From IMG/VR virus record IMGVR_UViG_3300045918_000145, positions 1 through 64,000 of that record: a stretch of 64,000 nucleotides of DNA; one strand, written 5' to 3'. Below, piece by piece: positions 18,165-63,416 of the stretch. The translations under genes were made by a program, and so were the position numbers. The notes below the pieces were generated by a model, which saw nothing but the letters and a program-made list of their open reading frames with translations, did no database searches and was not told the DNA's origin. How positions within the stretch are numbered: position 1 is the stretch's first letter; each line of letters opens with the position of its first letter. Source of the stretch: a virus.

Positions 18165-18559
18165 TGATTTGGAATGATTACGAGATAAAAGTAAAAGCTA
18201 TTCCTAAAGAACAGTTTAATTCTAAAGAATACGTAACAGAACGCATTGGTGTCTTCGTTGGTACGCAAGTTCAAATAAACGTTGAACGAGCACGACTTGT
18301 TATAGAAGCCAAAGAAAAAGAATTGGATATCAGGACACGGTACTATGCACAATATAATGCTATCATGGCTGAATACAAAACTAAACTCTATGGTGACTAT
18401 AACCTATCAGTAGAGATACTTGATATGGCTTACGCTCATGCATACGAAAGAGGCCATTCATCAGGATACTCTGAAATAGAAGGCATCTTTTATGAAGTGA
18501 TAAGTGATTACGCAAAAGCATACGATCTTGGTTTAAAGGACGGTAGAAATGGTAAATAA
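18164..18559 (+). CDS. Hypothetical protein (131 aa)
   Basis: Overlaps the primase stop (TAATG), with GGGAGG upstream. A charged helical middle (RARLVIEAKEKELDIRTR) suggests a coiled coil. The stop overlaps the ATPase start by 11 bases. Function unknown; probably a replication accessory. Confidence 0.55.
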   Translation: MIWNDYEIKVKAIPKEQFNSKEYVTERIGVFVGTQVQINVERARLVIEAKEKELDIRTRYYAQYNAIMAEYKTKLYGDYNLSVEILDMAYAHAYERGHSSGYSEIEGIFYEVISDYAKAYDLGLKDGRNGK

Positions 18560-19268
18560 CAATCTCGTACTCATATGTGGAACAAGCGGAGGAGGCAAAT
18601 CAGCCTCACTCCGTAACATTCCTGATCCTGCAGGAGTGATCTATCTTAACTGCGAATCTGGTAAACTTCTGCCATTCGCGTCTAAGTTTAAGTCACTCAC
18701 TATCACTGATCCTATGGATGTATATCAGGCTTTCACAGAAGCTGAAAGTATGCCAGCCATACACACTATAGTAGTTGACAGTGTGACATTCCTCATGGAC
18801 ATGTTTGAGAGCGTCTATGTAATTGGCGCATCTGACACTATGAAGATGTGGGGAGAGTATCAACAGTTCTTTAAGAATCTGATGCAACAGCACGTAGCTA
18901 AATCGACTAAGAATGTCATCTTCACAGCCCATACTCTTAACGTACTCAATGAAAATGAAATGGTTGTTGAGTGTAAAGTTCCTATCAAAGGAGCACTTAA
19001 GAACAACGGATTGGAAGCCTATTTCTCAACAGTCGTTACGGCTCGTAAGATAAGCATTAAAGGACTGAAGGACTATCAGAATGAAAATCTGATTATTACT
19101 CCTGAAGAAGAGATGCTTGGTTTCAAATATGTATATCAAACCAAGATAACCAAGGAAACCATTAACCATAGGATTAGATCTTCTATGGGTCTATGGTCTA
19201 CTGCTGAAACATTCATTGATAATGATGCTCAGATTCTTTTGAATAGGTTACATAAGTATCATTCCTGA
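18549..19268 (+). CDS. RecA-fold ATPase (Sak4-like recombinase)
   Basis: 239 aa with Walker A CGTSGGGKSA (residues 10-19) and Walker B IVVDSVTF (about 75-82), the layout of the compact RecA-core Sak4-type single-strand annealing ATPases found next to phage SSB genes. N4 carries a related protein in the same block. Expected to act with the SSB at 20531 in recombination or replication. The structured non-coding region begins just after its stop. Confidence 0.75.
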   Translation: MVNNNLVLICGTSGGGKSASLRNIPDPAGVIYLNCESGKLLPFASKFKSLTITDPMDVYQAFTEAESMPAIHTIVVDSVTFLMDMFESVYVIGASDTMKMWGEYQQFFKNLMQQHVAKSTKNVIFTAHTLNVLNENEMVVECKVPIKGALKNNGLEAYFSTVVTARKISIKGLKDYQNENLIITPEEEMLGFKYVYQTKITKETINHRIRSSMGLWSTAETFIDNDAQILLNRLHKYHS

Positions 19269-19269
19269 T

Positions 19270-20150
19270 TACACGAACATCCTTGGGGCGATAACAGTCT
19301 CCCCTGAAGATATGAGATAAGGCGGCATCCATTGATACCAATAATAATGGTAGGCCATAGAAGGACTCTGGCGAAGGAAAGTCGGTAACTAAACCTGACA
19401 GCCTGGAAATAGACAGGAACGCGGTGATAGCACTAGAGAAAGAGATTGGGAGCGAAAGGCAGTGAGACTCTGCGGCTCTAGTGCTTTCATGCATTATTAC
19501 AGTTTGGGTTACACCCCAAGAACGGAGATTGCCGCGTAAGCAAAGCGTCGTTGGTATAAGGTGTAACCCAATTCAATTTGGATAAAGTGATTGAGGGCAT
19601 AAGATAGAGGCGGATTCTATTAACTTAGACGGCTGAACAATGAGCGACCTCAGCTTTATCCAAATAAATATGGCAGGGTTAGACAATGCTGAATGATTTC
19701 TCCACTCTTAATATAGATTTACGGTGTGTATCTATGAGAGAAATGTATGATACATCATTCAGTCCCGATAGGCGGGAAAACGTCAGGTGAGAGAGAAACT
19801 CATCGAGTACGGTAGAATCCGTACCTAGTGGCAATGAGACACTGCTACACAGGGATCAATACTCCAGAAGAAATGCGAGCCTATCAGCCATTATAAAAAA
19901 GTAACTCAACTCTTCCCCCTCTCGGAACACATGGGAACGCCTGACAGACTGAAGAGGTCAATGGCAGGACGTGGACTAGGCACGAAGCATGTGGGTTGAC
20001 CGTGAAACCGATAAGGATACCTAGGAAGCACACGGATGTAGGCGGAGCCTGACCGAAATCTGACGCAACAATAAGTAACAGTACACTTAGGGGCTAAAGA
20101 ATCTGTGACCTAGCTGGTATCCAGAGTGAATCCAGCAACTAAACTAAAAG
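19270..20150 (+). ncRNA. Giant structured non-coding RNA candidate (about 0.88 kb)
   Basis: No credible ORF, yet densely self-complementary. Perfect stems include: 19285-19288/19301-19304; 19336-19340/19348-19352; 19430-19438/19476-19484 (9 bp) holding 19459-19462/19470-19473; 19504-19515/19560-19571 (12 bp); 19576-19587/19654-19665 (12 bp) holding 19592-19596/19648-19652 and 19604-19608/19616-19620; 19689-19697/19754-19762 (9 bp) holding 19698-19702/19738-19742 and 19713-19718/19730-19735; 19763-19767/19773-19777; 19807-19812/19819-19824; 19928-19933/19988-19993; 19976-19980/20020-20024; 20113-20117/20132-20136. The loop at 19767-19773 pairs with 19879-19885, a pseudoknot. Size and phage location resemble the GOLLD and ROOL ornate RNA classes, but I cannot match the sequence to either. 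It could be one RNA or several in tandem; orientation is assumed from the flanking genes. Confidence 0.8.
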
Positions 20151-20158
20151 GAGTATAA

Positions 20159-20485
20159 ATGATTGAAGCGTACAAAAAAGCAATACTGAACTATGCGAAC
20201 TTCCAAGGAGTTGCGACACGTTCAGAGTACTGGCTATTCCTGTTGTGCAATGTGCTTATTGGATTCTTTATTGGATTCATTGGAGCATTAATATCACCTA
20301 ATAGTGTTGCACCTATGACAACACTATATCAATTACTTGTTCTTATGCCATCCATATCTTTGACTGTCAGGCGTACGCATGATTCAAATCATTCTGGCTG
20401 GTGGGCATTACTACCAATTGTAAATTTTATCTTTATGTTTTTTCCCTCAGTACCAAGCCGTTACAGAATAATTGAAGTTAACTAA
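20159..20485 (+). CDS. DUF805-family inner-membrane protein
   Basis: 108 aa, ATG behind AAAGGAG. Matches the DUF805 (YhaH-like) pattern: a short amphipathic start with YANFQGVATRSEYW, two or three membrane segments (about 25-45, 55-70, 80-95), and SLTVRRTHDSNHSGWWALLP, the family hallmark. These proteins are common in bacteria, function unknown. Placed between the giant RNA and the SSB gene, it is probably acquired from a host. Confidence 0.8.
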   Translation: MIEAYKKAILNYANFQGVATRSEYWLFLLCNVLIGFFIGFIGALISPNSVAPMTTLYQLLVLMPSISLTVRRTHDSNHSGWWALLPIVNFIFMFFPSVPSRYRIIEVN

Positions 20486-20530: not shown

Positions 20531-21280
20531 ATGGGATTATTCGACAAAGTATCAACCAGCAGCACAGTGAAAGCAGAAGTTGACGTAGTACGTGGTCAGA
20601 AGAAAGAGCCGTTGGCATCCAACATTTACAATGCAATAATTAAGTATGCCTACGCAATCAAATCGAAAGGAGGAGCTTTGGGAGTTACAGTTGTACTGAC
20701 TACTCCTGAAGGACGTGAACTGAAGGAAATTCAGTACATCACATCTGGTGACGCAAAAGGAAACAAAACCTATTACGAGAAAGAGAATGCTGAAACCAAA
20801 GCAATGGAACAGTTCTCACTTCCAGGTTTTAATGCTATTGATTCACTCTGTCGTCTGGTACTGGGTAAAGGAGTTCTTGAGTGTGATAACGAAAAACGCA
20901 CCATCAAACTCTACGACTACGATACAAAAACTGAATTGCCAAAAGAAGTTGATATGCTGATCGACCTCGTTGGCAAACCAGTAGCTGTAGCTGTTCTAAA
21001 TCAGATTGAAGATAAGACAGCAAAGAGTGCTCAGACTGGTGCTTATGAGCCAACTGGCAAAACCTACTCAACCAACGTAATCGACAAGTACCTTGATGCA
21101 GATGATCGTAAGACTGCTCAGGAGAAAGCCAATAACGTTGAAGCCACGTTTGCTGAAGCTTGGCTTACTAAATGGAAGGATCAAGTATCCAACCAGTCCA
21201 CAACTTCTAAAACGGCTGGACAGCCAGGTGCGCCAGCTGCTACTGGGGAGGTAGCAAAAAAGACTAACCTCTTTGGGTAG
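20531..21280 (+). CDS. Single-stranded DNA-binding protein, N4 gp45-like
   Basis: 249 aa, ATG behind AAAGGAG. It starts with MGLFDKVST and ends with a flexible Gly/Ala/Lys tail (KKTNLFG), flanking a compact domain. Size, position after the RecA-like ATPase and overall pattern agree with the N4 SSB (gp45). In N4 the SSB is needed for replication and recombination, and also activates host sigma70 RNA polymerase at late promoters; the same is inferred here for the minus-strand late genes. Confidence 0.7.
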   Translation: MGLFDKVSTSSTVKAEVDVVRGQKKEPLASNIYNAIIKYAYAIKSKGGALGVTVVLTTPEGRELKEIQYITSGDAKGNKTYYEKENAETKAMEQFSLPGFNAIDSLCRLVLGKGVLECDNEKRTIKLYDYDTKTELPKEVDMLIDLVGKPVAVAVLNQIEDKTAKSAQTGAYEPTGKTYSTNVIDKYLDADDRKTAQEKANNVEATFAEAWLTKWKDQVSNQSTTSKTAGQPGAPAATGEVAKKTNLFG

Positions 21281-62121: not shown

Positions 62122-62349
62122 ATGAATGTCACAACTCACGAAGTAGAAGCACCTGGGCTATGCCCTTCGTTCATCAGGCCTTATCTTAAGGCTATTGAGA
62201 ACATCGGCACTATTGCCGAGAACATTACAGCAACTGGTGTTGTTGTATCACAGGCGGCACTTGCTGCTGCCGAACTGTCTAAAGCAATGATCGAATTGCG
62301 TTTAGCAGAAGTAACTGGTCAGCTTACACCACGTGCAAGCTTGACCTAA
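62122..62349 (+). CDS. Early small protein (75 aa)
   Basis: 75 residues, ATG behind AAGGAG. Helical, Ala-rich middle (AENITATGVVVSQAALAAAEL), possibly amphipathic. First gene of the early unit after P0. Unrecognised. Confidence 0.6.
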   Translation: MNVTTHEVEAPGLCPSFIRPYLKAIENIGTIAENITATGVVVSQAALAAAELSKAMIELRLAEVTGQLTPRASLT

Positions 62350-62355
62350 ACATGT

Positions 62356-62375
62356 AGCCTACCTTCGGGTAGGCT
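62356..62375 (+). terminator. Hairpin with TTCG loop
   Basis: AGCCTACC (62356-62363), TTCG, GGTAGGCT (62368-62375), then TACATTCTTT. Ends the first early unit. Confidence 0.7.
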
Positions 62376-62480
62376 TACATTCTTTGTGTCACACACAAAC
62401 ATCTAATCTACTACACACATCTACTGCACACAGCATCAGATAGTATCTTAAAGATAGTATCTGTATAGTGTATTAAGTTA

Positions 62481-62512
62481 AAACCTTTTCATAGTTTGGT
62501 AGCTTGTCTACC
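62481..62512 (+). promoter_or_regulatory. Early promoter-like element P1
   Basis: AAACCT (62481-62486), 11 bases containing CATAG, GG starting stem GGTAG (62498-62502), loop CTTGT, CTACC (62508-62512). Ahead of the gene at 62540. Confidence 0.55.
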
Positions 62513-62539
62513 TATATCTATATCTCTGGAGGTTTCACC

Positions 62540-62794
62540 ATGAAATCAATCACTATCGTTGGCGTTAATGCTATTGGCGAGCCTGTCAAGCTTGCCAAAG
62601 AAGTTGTCAGTTTCACTGACTCTAAGAACTACTTCAAAGTTACTTTGAATGTTAGTTCAGTAACTGTCACTACTCCTAAAGGAGTATATCAGTTAGAGAA
62701 GCATCCAACCCTGAATATCTATCAGGGCAAATGCGGTGATACTAAGACTCATGTGAGTCTTAAGAAGATCGTTGGCGAGATTCGTTACTGGTAA
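62540..62794 (+). CDS. Early small protein (84 aa)
   Basis: Start at 62540 behind TGGAGG. Beta-rich 84 residues (MKSITIVGVNAIGEPVKLA), with basic C-terminal half. Unrecognised; an early host-takeover protein is plausible from position alone. Confidence 0.55.
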   Translation: MKSITIVGVNAIGEPVKLAKEVVSFTDSKNYFKVTLNVSSVTVTTPKGVYQLEKHPTLNIYQGKCGDTKTHVSLKKIVGEIRYW

Positions 62795-62824
62795 GCTATT
62801 GCCCACCTTGTGTGGGCTTAGCTT
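62793..62824 (+). terminator. Nested hairpin after the second early gene
   Basis: AAGCTA (62793-62798) pairs with TAGCTT (62819-62824), and GCCCAC with GTGGGC inside. T-rich sequence follows. Confidence 0.6.
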
Positions 62825-62832
62825 CTTATTTA

Positions 62833-62859
62833 AAACCTCTTCATAGATAGGTATCTATC
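62833..62859 (+). promoter_or_regulatory. Early promoter-like element P2
   Basis: AAACCT (62833-62838), 11 bases with CATAG, GG at 62850-62851. Stem GATAG (62846-62850), loop GTAT, CTATC (62855-62859). Ahead of the two tiny ORFs at 62877 and 62965. Confidence 0.5.
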
Positions 62860-62876
62860 AAACTAAAGGAGATATT

Positions 62877-62954
62877 ATGAAATGTATCTACGTTACTCAA
62901 TGCATGTATAAAACTAAATCAGGCAATTGCGTATGCAAGCGTTGCCGTAAATAA
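62877..62954 (+). CDS. Tiny Cys-rich early peptide (25 aa)
   Basis: 25 residues with five cysteines (MKCIYVTQCMYK...CVCKRCRK), ATG behind AAAGGAGATATT. Could bind zinc or form disulfides. The identical ribosome site is reused by the next ORF. Confidence 0.5.
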   Translation: MKCIYVTQCMYKTKSGNCVCKRCRK

Positions 62955-62964
62955 AGGAGATATT

Positions 62965-63039
62965 ATGAGCATCACTATCTTTGACATCATTGCTATCGCA
63001 GTAGTGAATGTCTTGTTGTACATCCTCGTAGTTATCTAG
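62965..63039 (+). CDS. Tiny membrane peptide (24 aa)
   Basis: 24 residues, nearly all hydrophobic (MSITIFDIIAIAVVNVLLYI...), ATG behind AAAGGAGATATT. A single membrane-spanning peptide; phage early membrane peptides can affect the host membrane or superinfection. Confidence 0.5.
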   Translation: MSITIFDIIAIAVVNVLLYILVVI

Positions 63040-63056
63040 CCTAGCTTACCATCACA

Positions 63057-63086
63057 ATGCCATTGCGCTTTCATAGGCAATGGCAT
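63057..63086 (+). terminator. Perfect 10-bp hairpin
   Basis: ATGCCATTGC (63057-63066) pairs with GCAATGGCAT (63077-63086), 10-base loop. Ends the unit with the tiny ORFs. Confidence 0.6.
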
Positions 63087-63115
63087 CCTGTCTAAAGTCA
63101 CATACTTCAAAGTCA

Positions 63116-63148
63116 AAACCTTTTCATAGTCAGGATCGCTTAGGCGAT
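63116..63148 (+). promoter_or_regulatory. Early promoter-like element P3
   Basis: AAACCT (63116-63121), 11 bases with CATAG, GG, then ATCGC (63135-63139), loop TTAG, GCGAT (63144-63148). Ahead of the secreted peptide gene at 63177. Confidence 0.55.
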
Positions 63149-63176
63149 TACATCTATCCTTGCAAGGGAGTATCAA

Positions 63177-63416
63177 ATGAAGAAATTTGCATTCGTAGTA
63201 ATGGCAATCGTGTTGGCAATGTCAGTATCAGTACCATCGTATGCAGCATATAGTGCTGCAAAGAATGACTCTGCTAAGCCTGCAGCAGCCAAGTCATCGT
63301 CAGCCACTGACAGTCATGTCACTGCAGGCAAATCTGGTAAAGGTAGTAAAGGTAAGGCCGGCAAATCTGGTAGTTTCAAATCCGGTAACTTCAAGTCAGC
63401 TGGCCGTAGTAAGTAA
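63177..63416 (+). CDS. Exported Lys/Ser/Gly-rich basic protein (79 aa)
   Basis: Sec signal peptide (MKKFAFVVMAIVLAMSVSVP, then SYA before the predicted cut near residue 23) followed by a mature part dominated by Ser, Lys and Gly (GKSGKGSKGKAGKSGSFK). No family recognised. A periplasmic, strongly basic early protein is unusual for a phage. Ribosome site AAGGGAG. Confidence 0.6.
   Translation: MKKFAFVVMAIVLAMSVSVPSYAAYSAAKNDSAKPAAAKSSSATDSHVTAGKSGKGSKGKAGKSGSFKSGNFKSAGRSK

Follow-up and report, generated by a model that had tools for sequence, protein, structure and literature searches.

The 890 nt non-coding gap between the Sak4-like and DUF805 genes of this virus probably encodes a large folded RNA, belonging to a family without a match in Rfam, which lies sense to the replication operon and would act in trans as a scaffold with a docking hairpin. 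From sequence comparison, the RNA appears to be built of a conserved 5′ domain and a conserved 3′ domain containing a pseudoknot, separated by a window-specific expansion of long hairpins. Here the window means the whole 64 kb stretch of DNA that was analysed, taken out of a 71,755-base virus record.

Genomic setting of the non-coding gap

The replication genes of the window match phage families (DNA polymerase, primase, exonuclease, Sak4 and SSB), and the nearest phage records by DNA are those of N4-like phages (Schitoviridae-type). The gap extends from the Sak4 stop at 19268 to the next ATG at 20159 and is followed by the DUF805 gene and then by SSB (Table 1), so that both the placing in the replication block and the extent given in the original prediction (approx. 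0.88 kb, 19270–20150) were right, the latter within a few bases. We also found, as had been predicted, no open reading frame of at least 60 aa on the + strand inside 19269–20158; the sole ORF touching the gap is antisense, 93 aa long, at 19213–19494. No tRNA or tmRNA was called in the window by ARAGORN. Flanking the gap, there was no σ70 promoter-like site on the + strand, in a scan whose scope did not extend to N4-type phage promoters, and no intrinsic-terminator-like site. Elsewhere, the window carries repeated copies of AAAACCTYTTCATAG at 62340–63180 and, after them, small hairpins, which are candidate N4-type virion RNA polymerase promoters, and, between two genes at 751–950, a long near-perfect hairpin that is its strongest fold outlier (z −9.2).

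Table 1 Features of the gap and its neighbours (window coordinates)
Feature	Position	Strand	Basis or remark
Sak4-like ssDNA annealing protein gene, 5′ neighbour of the gap	18549..19268	+	phrog_124, E 1e-42
Whole non-coding gap, probably encoding a structured RNA	19269..20158	+	ORF, fold and Rfam results
5′ domain, 157 nt	19272..19428	+	Covariance model matches in L002, L174, L181 and L180
5′ domain helices	19280-19284/19361-19365, 19285-19292/19297-19304	+	
5′ domain helices	19322-19323/19354-19355, 19329-19333/19346-19350	+	
5′ domain helices	19369-19374/19382-19387, 19402-19405/19414-19417	+	
Signature hairpin, UGACA-G-CCUG[GAAAUAGA]CAGG-AAC	19396..19420	+	Found again in non-coding stretches of varied phages and prophages
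Window-specific hairpin, arms 19425-19438/19476-19489	19425..19489	+	14-nt arms, 93% complementary
Window-specific hairpin, arms 19504-19515/19560-19571	19504..19571	+	Perfect 12-bp arms
Window-specific hairpin, arms 19576-19587/19654-19665	19576..19665	+	Perfect 12-bp arms
Window-specific hairpin	19689..19762	+	14-nt arms, 86% complementary
3′ domain, 144 nt	19902..20045	+	R3: window 164 bits, L174 158 bits
3′ domain helices	19913-19917/19933-19937, 19940-19943/19965-19968, 19970-19973/19981-19984	+	
3′ domain pseudoknot	19977-19980/20020-20023	+	
Possible second signature hairpin, UGACA-GACU[GAAGA]GGUC	19942..19959	+	Scan with relaxed loop
DUF805 membrane protein gene, 3′ neighbour of the gap	20159..20485	+	PF05656, E 4e-21
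SSB gene, after the DUF805 gene	20531..21280	+	phrog_743, E 3e-56

The 5′ domain is conserved with compensatory change

Record L002, which was fetched by Sak4 similarity, has a 573-nt gap between sak4 and ssb, one piece of which aligns to the core of the window RNA. The closest record by Sak4, L001, has a short gap only, with a flanking hairpin, and differs from L002 by a clean indel of approx. 240 nt; the sak4–ssb gaps of near relatives are likewise short. When the window and L002 were aligned, 7 of 28 pairs had changed on both sides and none was broken. A covariance model built from the window and the L002 core (R1) matched only these two sequences among 50 N4-like records, and a pattern scan then added, from other phages, L174 (96 bits), L181 (70 bits) and L180 (45 bits), the last being a good match in the 3′ half of the domain only. 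The resulting five-sequence alignment covers several kinds of phage and, although it was fitted to the model so that structure is somewhat favoured, displays compensatory change at 12 of the 28 pairs with 94.8% of cells paired; none of 500 shuffles reached any of the measures, and the covariation signal was lost when the partners were shifted by 1–3 columns. It is on the + strand that G-U pairs occur, which agrees with transcription in the sense direction. R2, run over 369 Gammaproteobacteria and 297 Bacteroidota genomes, matched only L211 and L212, both at chance level, and neither the window RNA nor L002 had a BLAST match among phage records.

The 3′ domain and its pseudoknot

In L174, which comes from an unrelated phage, a homologue of the 3′ domain lies directly after the 5′ domain, in the same order as in the window and with the middle insert absent. 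All 17 pairs, over four helices, are kept between the two sequences, four of them with compensatory change, and one helix crosses another to form the pseudoknot. The apparent covariation of this domain rests on two sequences, from which the model R3 was itself built, and the shuffle control is correspondingly weak, with 26 of 500 shuffles reaching the score. A viral scan for the domain returned L174 only, and R3 found it nowhere beyond the window and L174 in the other records searched. The apical stem of the possible second signature hairpin is not kept in L174.

A covariance model from related phages had been named beforehand as a check, and an absence of covariation as what would count against the RNA; the models built here reveal covariation in both domains, which upholds a giant structured RNA under selection, with comparative support for approx. 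300 of the 890 nt.

Folding energy and helices

The gap folds on the + strand with an MFE of −260.7 kcal/mol, compared with a mean of −234.2 for shuffled sequences (z −4.0; 20 dinucleotide shuffles, both strands), and the reverse strand gives z −3.2. In 200-nt sliding windows the signal is confined to approx. 19350–19850 (z −1.9 to −5.2 on the + strand) and drops close to zero over the 3′ third of the gap, and other places in the window fold as well as, or better than, the gap. Folding energy is thus suggestive but not decisive, and the claim is carried by conservation with compensatory change, not by energy alone. As for the dozen or more perfect helices of up to 12 bp in the original prediction, the upper length held, in that two perfect 12-bp arms are present, but the number did not, as only eight inverted pairs were listed with a minimum length of 7 nt and a maximum span of 140 nt, the two 12-bp arms being accompanied by 14-nt arms of 93% and 86% complementarity and by several of 7 bp. 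The inter-domain segment (19429–19901, 473 nt) consists of four long hairpins and a linker without a counterpart in L174; this middle part is window-specific and its support is purely thermodynamic.

A signature hairpin recurs in diverse phages and prophages

Part of the 5′ domain is a small hairpin of the general form UGACA-stem-GAA(n)AGA-stem. Scanning genomes for this pattern gave nine loci, including ones in Pseudomonas, Paraburkholderia, Acinetobacter, Castellaniella, Spirosoma and Sphingobacterium, and BLAST of a 34-nt consensus found P1, mEp390, Stenotrophomonas and Xanthomonas Pokkenviruses (Schitoviridae) and an Ayaqvirus; both sets of finds are biased by the query, and the P1 match, taken without its genomic context, was weak (E=4). 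The least biased test gave six distinct sites in 1.26 Mb, compared with 0.0 in shuffles, the sample having been gathered through similarity to Sak4 or SSB and leaving out the window and L002. The sites are mostly intergenic and in sense orientation, in hosts that include Proteobacteria, Bacteroidota and Clostridia, a spread suggestive of a broadly conserved partner. Other N4-like phages have the hairpin in their tRNA arrays, and it also occurs in prophages of Proteobacteria and Bacteroidota; tRNA genes lie close to it in several carriers.

Some of these loci have features of their own. A Sphingobacterium paludis contig (L193, 5900–7560) has an array in which a tRNA-Glu is accompanied by expanded tRNA-like genes and the signature hairpin occurs twice. 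By eye, tRNA-like stretches with a D-arm and a T-arm, apparently lacking an anticodon arm, adjoin the hairpin at L025 4757–4885, L181 9280–9420 and L192 6930–6990. In the Pokkenvirus records L204, L205 and L208 the hairpin heads tRNA arrays that have long non-tRNA spacers, and in Stenotrophomonas phage BUCT708 (L207, 1400–2140) a single leader, for the most part non-coding, follows a repressor-like gene and holds several GGAAAGAC-type hairpins.

In P1, a conserved stretch of approx. 200 nt resembling such an RNA lies between trnI and ban (L202, 2340–2540) and has the signature hairpin at its end. BLAST of this stretch found matches in 1822 of 5426 complete E. coli genomes; among 20 matches listed, none was annotated except one labelled CRISPR. 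When four diverse copies were aligned, 8 of 27 predicted pairs had changed on both sides, and the P1 locus gave tRNA only against Rfam at gathering score. The stretch annotated as CRISPR (H155, E. coli 2012C-4502, 1868888–1868919) matches 32 nt of the P1-type RNA at 96.9% and is possibly a spacer.

A cis-acting role as the main rival

The main rival to a scaffold acting in trans is a cis role in transcription or processing, in which the hairpin-bearing RNA would be an element of the operon transcript, either for antitermination (nut/put-like) or for mRNA processing or 5′ stabilization, such as is needed wherever untranslated RNA of great length has to be made or preserved. We regard this as possible but doubtful. 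The hairpin lies sense in intergenic positions, in many cases a short way ahead of an ORF or ribosome-binding site, heads tRNA arrays and occurs in leader RNA 3′ of prophage repressors, and a precedent exists in the put RNA of HK022, a hairpin-based, cis-acting phage RNA that acts as RNA (PMC9378689). However, put, an antiterminator that binds the zinc-binding domain of RNAP β′, consists of two stem-loops in approx. 70 nt, the window RNA being far larger, and no sequence link to put was found, the signature hairpin form being absent from HK022 25–40.75 kb. The genes downstream of the RNA vary among carriers (DUF805/SSB, SSB, Tad2-like and UvrD-like helicase), which argues against gene-specific cis-regulation. 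In addition, the middle genes of N4-type phages are read by a phage polymerase, which would have no need of host antitermination. The boxB hairpin of lambda nut shares with the signature hairpin a short stem and a GAA-rich purine loop, but the signature hairpin has a longer loop, GAA(n)AGA, and the UGACA bulge.

Relation to known RNA families

The Rfam search that had been set beforehand as a test gave, for the window region against 4227 families, nothing at all over the gathering scores and, when extended to E=10, just four matches, all at chance level and none of them credible; to the same limit there was no match to ROOL, OLE, HEARO, group I or II introns, RNase P or tmRNA. A resemblance of motifs had suggested group I and II introns, RNase P and HEARO, all of which were dropped, having no model match. 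Besides chance-level matches, only tRNAs were found in L002 (E=10) and in L174, L180 and L181 (E=0.5). The same held at gathering score for L184, for the hairpin carriers L025, L182, L183 and L185–L193, and for the P1, mEp390, Pokkenvirus and BUCT708 loci, although scans at this threshold would miss sub-threshold Rfam relations in the hairpin-only carriers and P1-type loci. The GOLLD (RF02032) model exceeded its 150-bit gathering cut-off in none of 16 carrier records and had no match at E≤10 in the window record. The earlier failure to place the RNA in a known class therefore stands. A literature search on these sequences and on non-coding RNA of N4-like phages, covering few subscription papers, returned nothing relevant.

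That the RNA is a relic or mobile, for instance a degenerate intron or non-autonomous insertion element, would suit its patchy presence and the clean L001/L002 indel, but is unlikely given that the region has no intron or HEARO match in Rfam, that the RNA sits between genes and not inside one, and that covariation shows its structure to be maintained.

Among large structured RNAs, GOLLD occurs in phages and prophages, often near tRNAs, with one conserved part and a variable remainder, and ROOL, also from phages, is large, ornate and pseudoknotted and in many cases lies close to tRNA islands (PMC12286853). The window RNA resembles GOLLD in being a large phage RNA with a conserved part and a variable remainder, and ROOL in its size and pseudoknot, but its 5′ domain is the more widespread part and there is no tRNA in the window. 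RNA nanocages of the GOLLD/ROOL type are defined by a homo-oligomeric cage in cryo-EM. A distant member of either family is very improbable: the similar setting, with large phage RNAs often near tRNA genes and tRNAs in some carriers of the signature hairpin, has to be set against the absence of both from the scans above.

Proposed mechanism and implications

On the preferred reading of a trans-acting scaffold, the RNA would be transcribed together with the replication operon and fold as an independent element. In the signature hairpin, G-GAAnAGA-C caps a short stem, where it could form tandem sheared G-A pairs, and a UGACA bulge adjoins; this hairpin may then provide a shared contact to a widely conserved host component, e.g. 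the ribosome or the RNA-processing machinery. The RNA would be accessory, gained and lost as a unit among related phages. More tentatively, and with the balance slightly against it, the hairpin may mark a broad, hitherto unrecognized superfamily of phage RNAs that share one host docking element and would span leaders, tRNA-array spacers and stand-alone RNAs, with the window RNA as a large two-domain member and P1 carrying one of 200 nt.

Very few families of large structured phage RNAs are known, and the present RNA would add one more, with domains that are supported by covariation. Through the shared hairpin, this family is tied to the laboratory-tractable P1 and mEp390 and to RNA-like stretches in about one-third of complete E. 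coli genomes, which makes its function directly testable in standard strains.
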